Source: Nostoc sp. CENA543
GTDB taxonomy: Bacteria > Cyanobacteriota > Cyanobacteriia > Cyanobacteriales > Nostocaceae
DNA length: 64,000 bases
Assembly: GCF_002896875.1 (NCBI RefSeq)
Contig: NZ_CP023278.1
Span: 2,356,001-2,420,000 of the forward strand
Direction: 5' to 3'
Shown here: positions 58,581 through 64,000 of the stretch, piece after piece
Layout: each line of letters begins with the position of its first letter
How positions within the stretch are numbered: position 1 is the stretch's first letter
Position numbers and translations under genes: made by a program
Notes under the pieces: generated by a model
Told to the model about the DNA's origin: nothing
What the model saw: the letters and a program-made list of their open reading frames with translations, nothing else
Databases searched by the model: none

Positions 58581-58611
58581 AACAGTCCTTAAAAATTAAG
58601 GGCTGTTTTTT
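58581..58611 (+). terminator. Intrinsic terminator of the TPR gene
   Basis: AACAGTCCTTAA-AAA-TTAAGGGCTGTT is a 12-bp stem with one G-U pair, followed by TTTT, just after the stop. It may also serve the convergent GDT1 gene. Confidence 0.85.
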
Positions 58612-58617
58612 GAATTT

Positions 58618-58721
58618 TGTAGGCGCAAGCTAATGCTTGGCAACGCTATCGTGTTCGCCAAAGGCGTTCTCGCAGAGTACCCGTAGGGAATTTTGAATTT
58701 TGAATTTTGAATTTTGAATTG
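58618..58721. repeat. Palindromic repeats and ATTTTGA heptamers
   Basis: Short palindromic blocks (GTAGGCGCAAGC, GCCAAAGGCGTTCTCGCAGAG, ACCCGTAGGG) resembling those at 10205-10310, then about five ATTTTGA heptamers (58688-58721) ending at the GDT1 stop codon. Confidence 0.75.
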
Positions 58722-59351
58722 TTATGCTCCCTCAATGGCAGCAACCACGCCAAAAATCAAAAATAGGCATCCGCCAGCAAAGGTGAGTTGACGCTCAGAA
58801 ATGCGTCCCGCAATCATTTTGCCACCAATAACAGCGATCGCAGCGCAAATGGCATGACCTAAAATTGCTCCTGTGGTGACACCAATGGCATTATTACCTG
58901 CGGCTAGGGCAATGGTGGCAATTTGAGTGCGATCGCCCCATTCTGCCATGAATGTGAGAACAAAGGCTTCTGTCAAAATGGATAAGGGTGTTTTTTGCTT
59001 GGGTAGCTGCAATTCTGCTTTTTCGACTGCGGCTTTAGCTTCCTCGATTTCTTCCATCATTTCCGCTTTCTCGGCTTTTGCCGTCATCTTCACAGCTTCG
59101 TACAACAGCTTTAAGCCAAAGGCGATAAATAAAGCAATTTCAGCGTAATGTATATAAATTTTGGGCAATAATGAAGCCGCTTGACCAAATAACACTGAAA
59201 GGACAGTCATGGCGGCTAAGGCAGCTACTACGCCTGCAAATACCAATCTTCGTGAATGGTGCATTGCCAAAATCATAGCGATGAAAAATGTTTTATCGCC
59301 TAACTCTGAAACTGTAATTAGTAATAAACCTGCGGTAAAAGCTGTTAGCAC
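58722..59351 (-). CDS. TMEM165/GDT1-family manganese transporter
   Basis: 209-aa membrane protein of UPF0016 (TMEM165/GDT1; Mnx in cyanobacteria), a cation exchanger that moves Mn2+ (and Ca2+) out of the cytoplasm to the thylakoid lumen or periplasm. It has the two inverted halves with E-x-G-D-(K/R)-T: Glu16-Leu-Gly-Asp19-Lys-Thr and Glu137-Trp-Gly-Asp140-Arg-Thr, three helices each side and a charged Glu/Lys/Ala loop (about 90-118) between. Start is GTG at 59351, 9 nt after AGGAG. A yybP-ykoY Mn2+ riboswitch lies in its leader, which fits the transport function well. Confidence 0.93.
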   Translation of the reverse strand: MLTAFTAGLLLITVSELGDKTFFIAMILAMHHSRRLVFAGVVAALAAMTVLSVLFGQAASLLPKIYIHYAEIALFIAFGLKLLYEAVKMTAKAEKAEMMEEIEEAKAAVEKAELQLPKQKTPLSILTEAFVLTFMAEWGDRTQIATIALAAGNNAIGVTTGAILGHAICAAIAVIGGKMIAGRISERQLTFAGGCLFLIFGVVAAIEGA

Positions 59352-59565
59352 TCTCTCAAGCTCCTGAATAATCGCGTGTCATGTGAGCTTGATGAATGCC
59401 AAAAGCCCCCACCAAGCTCACAAGTAGTGTTGTTTGTGAACTTAGTGAAGGTCTCGCTACCAAATCTTTGTTATTTGTCATCTGAACCAGGCTCATCGCC
59501 AGTGTGTTGATTCAGATGTACTGGCTATTGAATTTTATGCCAGTAGCTACTCCCCTTCTATCTAG
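59352..59565 (-). promoter_or_regulatory. yybP-ykoY manganese riboswitch with translational switch
   Basis: On the minus strand GGGGAGTAGC (59555-59546) and AGCGAGACCTTC (59458-59447) are the two conserved loops of the yybP-ykoY class. P1 GAAGG/CCTTC (59558-59554, 59451-59447) closes the aptamer; inside are stems TACTGGC/GCCAGTA (59545-59539, 59525-59519) and CATCTGAA/TTCAGATG (59518-59511, 59486-59479). Downstream, GTGAGCTTG (59421-59413) pairs with CAAGCTCAC (59391-59383), which can instead pair with GAGCTTG inside AGGAGCTTGAG (59365-59355), the ribosome binding site. Mn2+ binding would thus free translation of GDT1. Structure inferred by eye. Confidence 0.85.
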
Positions 59566-59571
59566 GGCAAT

Positions 59572-59599
59572 CTTATACCTATCTGTAGGGATGAGTCAA
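59572..59599 (-). promoter_or_regulatory. Predicted sigma-70-type promoter of the riboswitch transcript
   Basis: TTGACT (59599-59594) and TATAAG (59577-59572) are separated by 16 bp on the minus strand, placing the start of transcription near 59564, just ahead of aptamer helix P1. Confidence 0.65.
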
Positions 59600-59729
59600 C
59601 TAATTTTAGATTTTGGATTTTGGATTGACTGCACCTACAAGGGACAAACCATTTAGGATTTTAGATTTTTTAAAATTGGAATTACAATTGGTAAATTGTC
59701 TTCCACAGCGAATCCGACTGGAGACTAAC

Positions 59730-60323
59730 ATGACACCAGCAACCATCATCGCTACAACCGCAAAAGAATCACCCCTGTTGTTTGAGGGAATGACTTGGAG
59801 AGAGTTCAAAGCAGTTGAGGGGTTGTTAGACCGTCCAGGCTATCGGTTGTCTTTTCTGGATGGCGTTTTGGAGATTAGGAGAAGGCTAGGAGAAGACCAC
59901 GAAACTGTTAAGGAAAGAATTGGTGCGTTATTAGAACTTTACCTACTTATAGCAGGGTTTGATTTTACTCCTACCGGCTCAATGACGCTAGAAAGTGAAT
60001 CTGGTGCTGTTAAACGGGAGGCAGATAAATCTTATAAGCTTGTTCCTGGGAAAGTACGTCCTGATTTGGCGATTGAGGTGGTTTTTACTAGTGGTGGTAT
60101 TAATAAGCTAGAGGCTTACAAGCGGCTGAAGATTCCCGAAGTTTGGCTTTGGGAAGATGGGGTTTTAGATGTCTATCATTTGCGTGTAGATGACACTGGA
60201 ACTTACTATGAAAGGGTTTCTCAGAGTGAAGAAGTGAAAGGGATAGATTTAGAGTTATTATTACGTTGCATTAACATGGTGAATCATGTAGATGCTATCA
60301 AAACTTTTCAACAGTCGCTTTAA
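59730..60323 (+). CDS. Uma2-family (DUF820) putative endonuclease
   Basis: 197 aa from ATG 59730 (GGAG 6 nt upstream; an open frame extends upstream but through repeats). Uma2/DUF820 proteins are PD-(D/E)xK-fold proteins greatly expanded in cyanobacteria. Visible: [15 protein letters not shown] near 44-58, [14 protein letters not shown] at 109-122 (core acidic Asp and Glu), K126, Y130 and [10 protein letters not shown] at 135-144. Biological role unknown. Its TAA stop overlaps the stop of the convergent nSTAND gene (TTAA). Confidence 0.88.
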
Positions 60324-63300
60324 TTACAAAGGGTGCGATCGCCTGGGCTAATATTGCTGTTATGCTCAAGATAATTATGAATGCGGGAGCATCCTTGCTG
60401 CATCAAGTTATCTAAATCTAAATTCCACAGTGTTACCCCAGAGTTTTCGCCACCACTCACAAGTAATTTACCATCAGGACTCAAACTCACACTATTCACT
60501 TTCTCGGAATTTCCTGAAAGTGTGGTGAGTAATTTACCGTTTGTGATATCCCAAAATTTGATGGTATTGTCAGCACTACCAGAAGCGAGAATTTGACTAT
60601 CTGCTGTAAAAGTGATGCTAGTTACACCGTCTGTATGTCCGGTGAGGGTTTGCATTAATTTGCCGTCTGGTAGTTGCCAAATTTTGATGGTATTGTCCCA
60701 ACTGGCGGAGGCTAATATTTTACCATTTGGGCTGAATTTTACTGAGGCGATCGCTAAACCGTGTCCAAGTAATTTTTTCACTAGTTTACCATCACTAATT
60801 CGCCAAATTTTTACTGTTTTGTCGTCGCTACCTGTCGCTAATATTTGACCATCAGGACTAAAATTCAGGCTAGTTATTACATCTTGGTGTCCTGTAATCG
60901 TTCTCAGCAATTTACCATTGGATAATTGCCAAATTTTGACAGTTTTATCAGCACTTCCAGAGACGATTGTCTGATTATCAGGACTAAAAATAATGCTGGT
61001 AACTCTATCTTGATGACCTTTTAATGTTAGGAGTAATTTTTGGGTTGGAATATCCCAAATTTTAACAGTTTTATCAGCACTAGCTGTGGCCAATAATTTA
61101 CCATTTTGACTAATAATAAGATTTTGAATTATATCGCGATGAGCTAAGAATGTAGTTAATTGTGACGCATTGACAATTTGCTCTCTTTGCCAAATAGTAA
61201 CTTTACCATCCCAGCCAGCAGAAACAAAAATTTTACCGTCTGGACTAAATTGTAAATCCTGCACATTATTTAAAGCTGATGTCATCTCAGGTTTTATTTG
61301 CCAGAGTCTGATAGTTTTATCTCTACTAGCAGAAGCAATATATTTACCATCAGGACTAAATTTTACATCTTGGACTTGTTCACCGTGTCCAGAGATAGTT
61401 TTAATTAATTTACCATCTAATCGCCAGAGTTTAATAGTCTTGTCAGCACTAGCAGAAACTATTAGTTGACTATTGAGGCTAAAATCAACGTGGTTAACTT
61501 GGTTATTGTGTCCGATAAAAGTTTGTATGAGTTTGCCTTGTTCATTCCACAATTTAATCGTTTGATCACGACTACCAGTAACTAAGTATTTACCATCAGG
61601 ACTAAACTGCACACAGGTAATACTAGCTGTGTGTCCAGGCAAAGTTTGAATTAATTGACCGTTATCGGTGCGCCAAAGTTTTAATAATTTATCTTCGCCA
61701 CCAGAGGCAATTATTTTACTGTCTGGGCTAAATGTGATAGAATTCACCCAACCATTGTGAGCAATCCAACTATTAATTAATTGCCCATCAACTCGCCATA
61801 ATTTAATAGTGGCATCGAAGCTAGATGTAGCAATGATAGAACTATCTGGACTGAAAATAATATCAGTGACTACATTGGTGTGAGCAGGAATATTATGGAT
61901 GAGCTTGATACATTTTTGGGACAAACACCTAGCGTCAAAAGCATAGATTTTCAGACTATAATCAGCACTAGCGACAGCCAAATATTTACCGTTGGGACTA
62001 AAAGCGATCGCGGTTAATCTTGATGGTGTAATAATATTCTCAATTAATCGACCGTCTTTAAACCAAATTTTGATTGTACCGTCATCACTAGCAGAAGCTA
62101 AAATCTGACCATTGGGGTGAAAAACGATGGCGTTTACCTGTTGCTGATGACCAAGGAAACGATTAATTTCCTGAGTGCGCGTCATAGCTTGTTGAAAAGT
62201 TGCGGCGGTGGTGATTTGGATATCTTCAGCAGGTGCAAGAACTCGTTTGAGTTCTCGTCGGGCTTTGATACTAGATATGACACTTTCTAATTGTTGATGA
62301 GATAACAAAAACGCCTCAGAAGCAGAATTTAAAGCGACAATTTCTCTTAATTGGGCGGCGCGTTGTTGTGTATAGGCTAAACCACCAAAGCCACTAGCAG
62401 CTATTCCTAAAATGCTGATCACAGCTATAGCTTTTTGTGCTTGTCGGAGACGTTTTTTCTGTTCTAATTGTTGTTGTTGCCGAGCATCTAAACAAGCAGC
62501 GATAAAATTTTGGACATCTATAGATAATTCATCTGTGTATTTAACATAGATTTCCTCAGCTTCCGCTAAACGAATACCTTGTAATAAAAAATCTGACTGT
62601 TCGTGATTTTGTTTCCAAAGAGCTGCGGCTTGCTCAATTTGACGCTGCGATCGCAGTCTACTACGATTTTCCTCCAACCACCAGCGCAACGTTGACCAGT
62701 GGCGAATGAGGATTTCGTGCGCTACTTCGATGGTAACAGGGGAGGTAGGGGGGCAGAGAGAAGTCCGAGCGGAGGCTTCCTCCGATCGGAACTTCGGAGG
62801 GTGCAGGGGTGTAGGGGAGGAGACGGAAGAAAGAGCAGTCCCCACTCCCCACTCCCCAGTCCCTAGTCCCTCCTCTAAATTCACCACGACTAATTTCGCC
62901 GCCGTTAACGCTGCAAGTGTTCTTTCTACCAGTTCATCAGGATATTTCTTGACGACTAACTCAGATTTCAAAACTCTGCGTCTGGTGTCTTCTGTGCCTT
63001 CGCCTAATTGCGTCAGTGAGAGAAAAATCCATCTTGCACATTCTTGCGCCTGTGGGTCTAAATTTTTGTAAACTTCTTCGGCTTTGCGTTCCAATGCGCC
63101 TTTAATTCCGCCAATTTGTTGCTGATAGGCTGTCAGCGTCAGTTCTCCAGCTTGGCGATATTCCCATAATTGTTCTAAGACAAATTCCAATAGGGGTAAA
63201 TCTCCCGCCGAGTGGTTTAAATCTTGCAGCAGAATTTCCACTAGTCCTGACTCGATTTTTAAACCCACTTGTTCAGCAGGGTTAATAATCACGCGGCGGT

Positions 63301-64000
63301 AGTCGTCATCACTCAAAGTGGGCGGAACTAATACACTAGACTGCTGCAATAAATTAGCGAGTTGAGGTACTTCCAAGCAAGGAGCAATAAAATCGGCTCT
63401 CAGGGTCAACACCAACTTAAACTTATCAGAGGCGTACTCGATAGCACCCAAGACTAATTCTAAAAATCGCTGTCTATCTTCAGTTGGTGCAAGGGTAAAT
63501 AATTCTTCAAATTGGTCAATTACTAACACCACCACCGGTTCTGGACGACTCCGCAGCCAATACACAAAGCCTTCTACTCCCTGGTAAAGCATGGCTTCTA
63601 ACAGGAGGGGATTGGGGATTGGGGATTGGGAATTGGGCATTGCTCTTTCTCCCATCTCCTCCCCCTGCACCCCTGCCCCCTGCCCCCCTGCCTTCACTTC
63701 CCCTAAGCGTCGCGCCAAGGCCTCTAAGGGACGTGCGCCGGGACGGATGGTTTTAATTAACCAGGAGTCGCTATTGGGGATTTGTTTTCCTTGACGTAGT
63801 TGTGCTGTGAGTCCGGCTTGGACTACGGAGGATTTCCCACTACCTGATGCACCGACTACGGCTAAAAATGATTGGTGGGTGATGTGTGCTATTAATTGCT
63901 GTGTGAGGGATTCTCTACCGTAGAAATATTGAGCATCTTCTTCACTAAAAGCTTTTAACCCCCGATAGGGACAAATTTTTAAATCTAAGGCTGTGGGTTT
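60320..64000 (-). CDS. nSTAND ATPase with 14 WD40 repeats (partial, 5' end outside window)
   Basis: Frame is open to the right edge; 1226 residues plus stop are visible. It begins inside the nSTAND module: [21 protein letters not shown], Walker [10 protein letters not shown] at visible residues 50-58, Walker [29 protein letters not shown] and [20 protein letters not shown] single transmembrane helix ([19 protein letters not shown]) follows, then 14 WD40 repeats, enough for two seven-bladed propellers, and the [14 protein letters not shown] tail typical of cyanobacterial WD40 giants. Two low-complexity inserts are coded by repeat DNA. Such proteins sense a ligand with WD40 and signal through an N-terminal effector, which lies outside the window. 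Confidence 0.9.
62725..62875 (-). repeat. Repeat insertion in the nSTAND gene, site 2
   Basis: CGAGCGGAGGCTTCCTCCGA palindrome with GGAACTTCGGAGGGTG, then CCCACTCCCC-type units, encodes about 45 Gly/Ser/Pro/Thr-rich residues between [10 protein letters not shown] and [10 protein letters not shown]. The frame is kept. Confidence 0.8.
63594..63705 (-). repeat. Repeat insertion in the nSTAND gene, site 1
   Basis: GGGGATT heptamers and CCCCCTGCACCC/CCCCTGCC units encode the linker [15 protein letters not shown] through [11 protein letters not shown] between the P-loop region and Walker B. The frame is kept. Confidence 0.8.

Follow-up and report, generated by a model that had tools for sequence, protein, structure and literature searches.

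A putative yybP-ykoY Mn2+ riboswitch with a four-arm platform ahead of a GDT1 transporter gene in Nostoc and other cyanobacteria

The window, which is the whole stretch of 64,000 nucleotides of Nostoc sp. CENA543 DNA that was analysed, carries a regulatory leader on its minus strand at about 59566-59349. Read in the direction of transcription, it passes from a promoter through a four-way-junction aptamer and a platform of about 100 nt to the GTG start of a GDT1-family gene. The leader very likely belongs to a cyanobacterial subgroup of yybP-ykoY Mn2+ riboswitches in which a relay of four RNA strands governs how a GDT1 (Mnx-type) exporter is translated, with Mn2+ binding and the direction of control as putative parts of this reading. 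The locus has every yybP-ykoY structural feature that was tested and falls below the Rfam threshold, and we treat it as a putative Mn2+ aptamer. It is also reasonably probable, at a lower level of confidence, that many cyanobacteria, from the Nostocales to lineages with GDT1 proteins 43-47% identical to the one in the window, carry a Mn2+ riboswitch that is below the Rfam threshold and works by a transcription-coupled four-strand relay hiding both the ribosome site and the start codon. The yybP-ykoY family and its control of UPF0016 genes are known already. As far as the literature was searched, the sub-threshold cyanobacterial subgroup and its four-arm platform are new.

The gene and its promoter were located as follows.

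58722..59351, minus strand: GDT1/UPF0016 transporter gene, 209 aa, GTG start, two ExGD[KR][ST] motifs
59572..59599, minus strand: promoter, with -35 TTGACT at 59599-59594 and -10 TATAAG at 59577-59572

A first-pass annotation of the sequence had placed a yybP-ykoY-type aptamer ahead of a GDT1 transporter, and both halves of that reading are borne out, the first by the structural features described below and the second by the protein itself. The protein matches Pfam GDT1 (PF01169) over two stretches with E 1.9e-45, and it has the two domain copies and the ExGD[KR][ST] motifs that mark the GDT1 family. NCBIfam gave the protein no family assignment. Characterised GDT1 proteins transport Mn2+, according to an excerpt of PMC7380456, and the gene probably encodes a Mnx-type Mn exporter. 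Outside the window, the same genome has two more GDT1 matches side by side, each in a shorter frame of its own (G000:C1:1876107-1876652). They are probably Hmx1/Hmx2-like and had no RF00080 match beside them in the genome-wide search.

A promoter scan found the same -35 element, paired with an overlapping -10. When 37 leaders were compared by eye, most showed a -10-like hexamer at an unchanged distance from P1, and CTTGACT or a similar sequence was clear in many of the Nostocales leaders. Transcription would start near 59566. The leader folds at -86.8 kcal/mol (z = -7.3), a stability that exceeds chance: none of 200 shuffled sequences was equally stable.

The aptamer follows the plan of Rfam family RF00080, a four-way junction formed by P1, P2, P3 and P4, and its parts are listed here.

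59446..59561, minus strand: aptamer, four-way junction on the RF00080 plan, 98.5% standard pairs over 27 leaders
59558-59554/59451-59447, minus strand: P1.1, GAAGG with CCTTC
59547-59545/59458-59456, minus strand: P1.2
59544-59539/59525-59520, minus strand: P2
59518-59508/59489-59479, minus strand: P3.1
59500-59498/59492-59490, minus strand: P3.2
59477-59473/59465-59461, minus strand: P4, a third internal stem
59553-59548 (GGAGTA) and 59455-59452 (GAGA), minus strand: the two strands of internal loop L1
59501..59507, minus strand: L3 metal loop, ACACACT

The elements named in the first-pass annotation are all found on the minus strand: the motifs GGGGAGTAGC and AGCGAGACCTTC, P1, two internal stems (P2 and P3), the promoter and the arms. 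It had described the two motifs as both conserved loops of the aptamer. The motifs are there, but they are not two loops, since both are strands of the one internal loop L1; L3 had gone unnamed.

Conservation of the aptamer was measured in alignment A1. It holds 27 of the 81 leaders from Nostocales, made up of the window and of 29 non-redundant loci from which 3 with long insertions were removed. Standard pairs occupy 98.5% of its 891 cells, while control helices made by sliding the strands reached 44.9% at most. The alignment covers 33 pairs, 8 of which are altered on both sides. Cells with a double change number 21 against 5.1 in shuffles, and they are located in P2, P3.1, P3.2 and P4. Further pair types were no more numerous than in the shuffles, 243 of 500 of which reach the same number. 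P1.1 is invariant in this alignment. In the wider set of 112 leaders it changes from GAAGG/CCTTC to GAAAG/CTTTC, a compensatory change, in five (L202, L203, L220, L223 and L224), and a non-standard P1.1 pair occurs in none of the 112. The 112 leaders were selected for having the aptamer and at least 81 are from Nostocales, so medians over the set lean towards that order.

The loops are conserved as well. GGGGAGTA is present upstream of the gene in all 80 Nostocales orthologues that the orthologue search kept, and AGC[AG]AGACC in 72 of them; the remaining 8 have AGT for AGC, and the wider pattern covers 80 of 80. Both strands of L1 have the sequence expected of a yybP-ykoY aptamer: GAAGGGGAGTAGC is found in 102 of the 112 leaders with close variants in 10, and AGCGAGACCTTC in 92 with close variants in 20. 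The L3 adenosine of the family, at 59505, is kept in all 112. The adenosine that contacts Mn2+ is A48 in X. oryzae (ACA48UACU), equivalent to A41 in L. lactis (PMC6754395), and aligning ACA48UACU to ACACACT suggests that the adenosine at 59505 is their counterpart.

Most leaders have ACATACT in L3, while the window has ACACACT, a C variant seen in 5 of 112 leaders which might tune metal affinity. This C for U just after the key adenosine is one reason to consider that the fold, as a yybP-ykoY variant, could respond to a different metal or signal instead of Mn2+, and an excerpt of a review (PMC7266159) does expect common variants of the motif with altered metal specificity. We consider such a change of ligand quite improbable, because the Mn2+-contacting adenosine and, with close variants, the commonest L1 strands run through the whole set, the characterised GDT1 proteins transport Mn2+, and X. 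oryzae and L. lactis themselves differ at the neighbouring L3 position while both bind Mn2+ (PMC6754395). The Mn2+ aptamer therefore remains the preferred reading of the fold.

The Rfam model was the check that the first-pass annotation had proposed for this reading, and the search did return the locus, but only below threshold, so that the check, read strictly, goes against the annotation. At the gathering score, which is a curated reporting threshold for a fold that is itself defined by structural features, RF00080 had no match in the window. Below that score it matches the locus with 26.2 of 45 bits (E 2.1e-5, local search) over model positions 1-177, and in a genome-wide search the locus is the best place in the genome (E 8.1e-5). 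The same pattern holds in the phylum: RF00080 is above the gathering score in none of 292 genomes and has a weak match in 42 of them, at 19.9-39.4 bits against the 45 of the gathering score.

A covariance model named R1 was built from 27 leaders and used with a cut-off of E <= 1e-3. It finds 64 places in 61 of 386 genomes and 42 of 142 genera, and 40 of the 44 weak RF00080 places in the 292 genomes coincide with its matches. GDT1 relatives, sought at E <= 1e-20 so that more distant GDT1 genes fall outside the count, number 91 genes in 90 of the 386 genomes. These genome counts are lower bounds, as searches of more than 40 genomes ran under stricter filters. Nearly all R1 places (59 of 64) lie 82-205 nt upstream of a GDT1 gene on the same strand, which puts the aptamer in the leader of a Mn homeostasis gene, as is typical of yybP-ykoY. 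A local search added L223, bringing the aptamer to 60 of the 91 GDT1 genes; it was absent at the other 31 with the local search included. Among the 40 sampled genomes of the window's family that have the gene, 38 carry the aptamer.

The two family genomes without it (L189 and L194) belong to one genus and have lost the leader. In its place the open frame of the upstream gene, rhodanese-like by eye, overruns the GDT1 start. The five R1 places that are not beside GDT1 (L239, L240, L241, L242 and L243) come from three genomes outside the window's class. By Pfam, their targets are one TerC gene, two sodium/calcium exchanger genes and two genes with a Tim44-like domain, the last being an unexpected target for a Mn2+ riboswitch.

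Between the aptamer and the start codon lies the platform, in which four arms were identified.

59434..59451, minus strand: arm A', the P1.1 3' strand CCTTC plus ACTAAGTTCACAA, which pairs with A if P1 is absent
59406..59423, minus strand: arm A, TTGTGAGCTTGGTGGGGG, whose partner is A' or B
59382..59398, minus strand: arm B, of which CATCAAGCTCACA at 59394-59382 pairs with A, and the CATT upstream of it joins the B-C pairing
59348..59365, minus strand: arm C, AGGAGCTTGAGAGAGTGC, with the Shine-Dalgarno AGGAG at 59365-59361 and the GTG start at 59351-59349

The switch had been described as one of three arms, A at 59421-59413, B at 59391-59383 and C at 59365-59355. All three are present, with AGGAG inside C and GTG at 59351-59349, and the claimed complementarity holds: a 9-nt stretch of B matches A exactly as its reverse complement, and B pairs with 7 nt of C. 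The number of arms was short by one, since A' at 59451-59434 had been missed. The full A-B helix is about 13 bp long. The first letters of A', CCTTC, are the 3' strand of P1.1, so P1.1 cannot coexist with the full A'-A hairpin. By the same overlap, A' would couple P1, and hence Mn2+, to A.

The geometry of the platform is nearly constant. In all 112 leaders 92-114 nt separate L1 from the start codon, counted after the start codons of 13 of the 31 wide leaders had been moved by hand to an in-frame ATG or GTG. The start codon is GTG in 92 leaders and ATG in 20. Of the 112 platforms folded alone, 111 form the long A'-A hairpin, and each of these 111 has B paired with C across the ribosome site as well. 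In five leaders (L207, L210, L211, L217 and L218) the hidden element takes in the ATG. By our own reading, C is GCATGA or close to it in these leaders and B is TCATGCC; B is altered to match C, which keeps the B-C pairing, and A-B keeps most of its pairs, with a mismatch.

The first-pass annotation had asked for a covariation check of the arms, and the A-B and B-C pairings do turn out to be maintained across divergent leaders. In a swap test, duplex energies of a leader's own arms were compared with those of arms swapped between leaders over 5000 permutations. Arm windows were anchored on motifs and positions instead of complementarity, and one leader was taken per cluster of <80% identity. 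With the first arm finder, which covered 27 of 30 clusters and missed 3, own arms were better than swapped arms for A'-A (-23.2 against -20.2 kcal/mol), A-B (-24.2 against -19.5) and B-C (-20.3 against -15.3), and in each case 0 of 5000 permutations was as good. The control combinations A'-B, A'-C and A-C in the same 27 clusters were equalled by 390, 3577 and 379 of 5000. A second arm finder, covering 26 of 30 clusters and missing 4, gave the same outcome, with 3533, 2573 and 776 of 5000 for the three controls.

Column counts were made in alignment A2, which holds 50 of the 112 leaders at <90% identity. The paired share is 92.3% for A'-A, 85.7% for A-B and 82.9% for B-C, and the double-change cells number 25, 53 and 34 respectively. 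All three helices beat all 500 shuffles and every slid control in paired cells, double-change cells and covariation score. A'-A is unexceptional in the number of pairs with a double change (64 of 500 shuffles) and in pair types (93 of 500). Relatedness inflates such column counts, and the three combinations that were not proposed as helices serve as a control of equal relatedness. Judged by these alignments, the three alternative helices A'-A, A-B and B-C covary across divergent leaders. The platform thus has the marks of a translational one, namely mutually exclusive helices that are maintained in evolution, one of which hides the ribosome site.

The arms suggest the following mechanism. Mn2+ would dock L1 to L3 and so stabilise P1.1, whose 3' strand starts A'. 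With P1.1 held, A' and A could pair only in a shortened form, and the newly made B would take A. Once A-B has formed, C, with its Shine-Dalgarno sequence and start codon, would be free for a time and ribosomes could load, which would be the ON state at high Mn2+. Without Mn2+, A would invade P1 and form the long A'-A hairpin, leaving B free to mask the ribosome site and the start codon by pairing with C, which would be the OFF state. The choice would most likely be made during transcription and then held by ribosome binding. Being ON at high Mn2+ would be the direction expected of an exporter.

The energetics of this exchange were calculated with and without P1 held. The energy comparison in RNA before C covers 105 of the 112 leaders and the full-length gap 104, an arm not being definable in the rest. 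Accessibility covers 110 leaders, L184 and L222 having no Shine-Dalgarno pattern. In one further computation with P1.1 forced, 4 of the 112 leaders lacked an A arm and another lacked a pairing value. Kinetics used direct-path barriers. Before C, the energy of A-B relative to A'-A moves from +9.1 kcal/mol without P1 to -2.2 kcal/mol with P1 held (median of 105 leaders), and from +6.3 to -2.3 kcal/mol in 25 non-redundant leaders. P1 shifts the energy towards A-B in 105 of 105 leaders, and with P1 held A-B is the lower in 69 of the 105 and in 14 of the 25 non-redundant ones; L207, L217 and L218 are among those where it is not. The barrier from A'-A to A-B falls from 13.4 to 3.9 kcal/mol with P1 and is lower in 104 of 105 leaders. 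In the ensemble, the mean fraction of A engaged with B goes from 0.01 without P1 to 0.36 with it, and A-B is ahead in 47 of 105. The window's own ensemble before C, with P1 held, has A'-A at 0.75 and A-B at 0.20.

In the full-length RNA, P1 does not reverse the balance. With P1 forced, OFF remains the lowest-energy fold. The ON state with A-B lies above the best fold by a median of 5.4 kcal/mol with P1 and 15.9 without (104 leaders), and in the window by 13.7 kcal/mol with P1 and 18.1 without. The effect of P1 towards ON is thus about 10 kcal/mol at the median and about 4 in the window. Under forced P1, a gain in openness of more than 0.2 at the ribosome site was computed for only 3 of 110 leaders; at the start codon the gain exceeded 0.2 in 30 of 110, and a loss of more than 0.2 was seen in 10. 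Returning to OFF along the direct path means crossing a barrier of about 3 kcal/mol, a value computed with P1.1 one base out of register in 5 of 112 leaders (L202, L203, L220, L223 and L224). The earlier claim that A-B pairing frees the ribosome binding site therefore stands in part. A-B pairing is there, but P1 alone does not open the site at equilibrium in the full-length RNA, least of all in the window, and on these model energies the claim can hold only for a co-transcriptional or ribosome-assisted step. Since the shift from P1 is insufficient in the full-length RNA, the ON state probably needs co-transcriptional folding or capture by the ribosome. The remainder of the energy would come from timing, from ribosome binding or from effects beyond nearest-neighbour energies.

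Two models of the Mn2+ state were tried and set aside. Forcing P1.1 alone, as a route to an open ribosome site at equilibrium, failed in the full-length RNA. When the first 13 nt of A' were blocked, A-B formed in 87 of 111 leaders, and B-C stayed in 24, the window included; as proof of the Mn2+ state this block assumes more than P1.1 and fails in the window.

A computed equilibrium that favours a hidden ribosome site with or without P1 is also what one would see if the leader were simply a constitutive structure, acting on mRNA stability or as something like an RNA thermometer, with no switching by a ligand. We give this very little credence: a static fold of A'-A plus B-C has no need of A-B, whose covariation is kept nonetheless, and the residues known to form the metal site of the aptamer are invariant.

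Control at the level of transcription is a more serious alternative to the translational relay, though still unlikely. It would make the long A'-A hairpin and the U-rich stretch after it an intrinsic terminator, prevented when Mn2+ holds P1, with B-C pairing as a secondary matter. The A'-A hairpin does use the 3' strand of P1, an architecture like that of the L. lactis switch described in excerpts of PMC11087558. In 110 of 112 leaders, the 8 nt that follow the A stem average 4.57 U, where platform composition predicts 2.31, and a terminator would work regardless of how hard it is, by computation, to expose the ribosome site in full-length RNA. However, the U stretch is short (CUUUUGG in the window) and weak, at 2-3 U of 8, in L037, L185, L209 and L220, and part of it (GGUCU) can pair with the AGACC of L1 in many leaders. 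A terminator scan found none on the minus strand, with the scan limited to loops of 3-8 nt and the A'-A loop being 10. Excerpts of the TaRTLEt work report that transcription terminates at some yybP-ykoY loci. Termination would leave the covariation of B-C over the start site in divergent leaders unexplained, though it may contribute to control.

MntP belongs to an exporter family other than GDT1. The E. coli mntP leader is a close parallel, for it likewise places a Mn2+ aptamer ahead of a Mn exporter gene; in excerpts of PMC11647493, its yybP-ykoY element acts on translation, with a ribosome site that is inaccessible without Mn and freed with it. Compared in outline, the present platform differs from that leader: it packs four arms into a compact relay whose length hardly varies and which usually hides the start codon too. 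The L. lactis yoaB and X. oryzae yebN riboswitches, as described in excerpts of PMC6754395 and PMC11087558, have the same aptamer plan, the P1.1 switch helix, L1, L3 and the Mn-contacting adenosine, and the 3' strand of their P1.1 is likewise shared with a competing downstream hairpin, against which Mn2+ stabilises P1.1. Their competing hairpin is a terminator, whereas the hairpin described here would feed an exchange of A-B and B-C over the ribosome site.

Mn is the metal of the water-splitting centre. If the proposed mechanism is right, a Mn-sensing leader on an exporter gene would add export-side control to its homeostasis. UPF0016 genes have been described under yybP-ykoY, which is present in 328 of the 333 screened strains that have such a gene, and an Anabaena UPF0016 member under ManSR (PMC7380456). 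Excerpts of a 2019 review of cyanobacterial Mn homeostasis (PMC7020235) and of a 2024 paper (PMC11649195) each name ManS/ManR (ManSR) as the sole identified regulator, and a term search of the 2019 review did not find the word "riboswitch". A search of literature titles and abstract openings found no description of a cyanobacterial yybP-ykoY or Mn2+ riboswitch, with Synechocystis, Anabaena and Mnx included in the search. According to an excerpt of PMC11649195, mnx mRNA is unaffected by Mn excess in wild-type Synechocystis. If the mechanism holds and Synechocystis mnx has such a leader, post-transcriptional control would fit this indifference.

The subgroup also bears on annotation, for here an accepted riboswitch family lies below its official threshold in all 292 sampled genomes and is missed by threshold-based annotation. 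Its covarying alternative helices make it a good natural case for the study of co-transcriptional strand exchange.

The surroundings of the locus were noted as well. The divergent neighbour at 59613-60323 on the plus strand is a Uma2 gene (PF05685), and beyond it lies a large nSTAND1-WD40 protein at 60320-63718 on the minus strand. Behind the transporter gene, at 58610-58721, AAAATTC repeats in a row and a repeat-like stretch with a higher GC content can be seen by eye.
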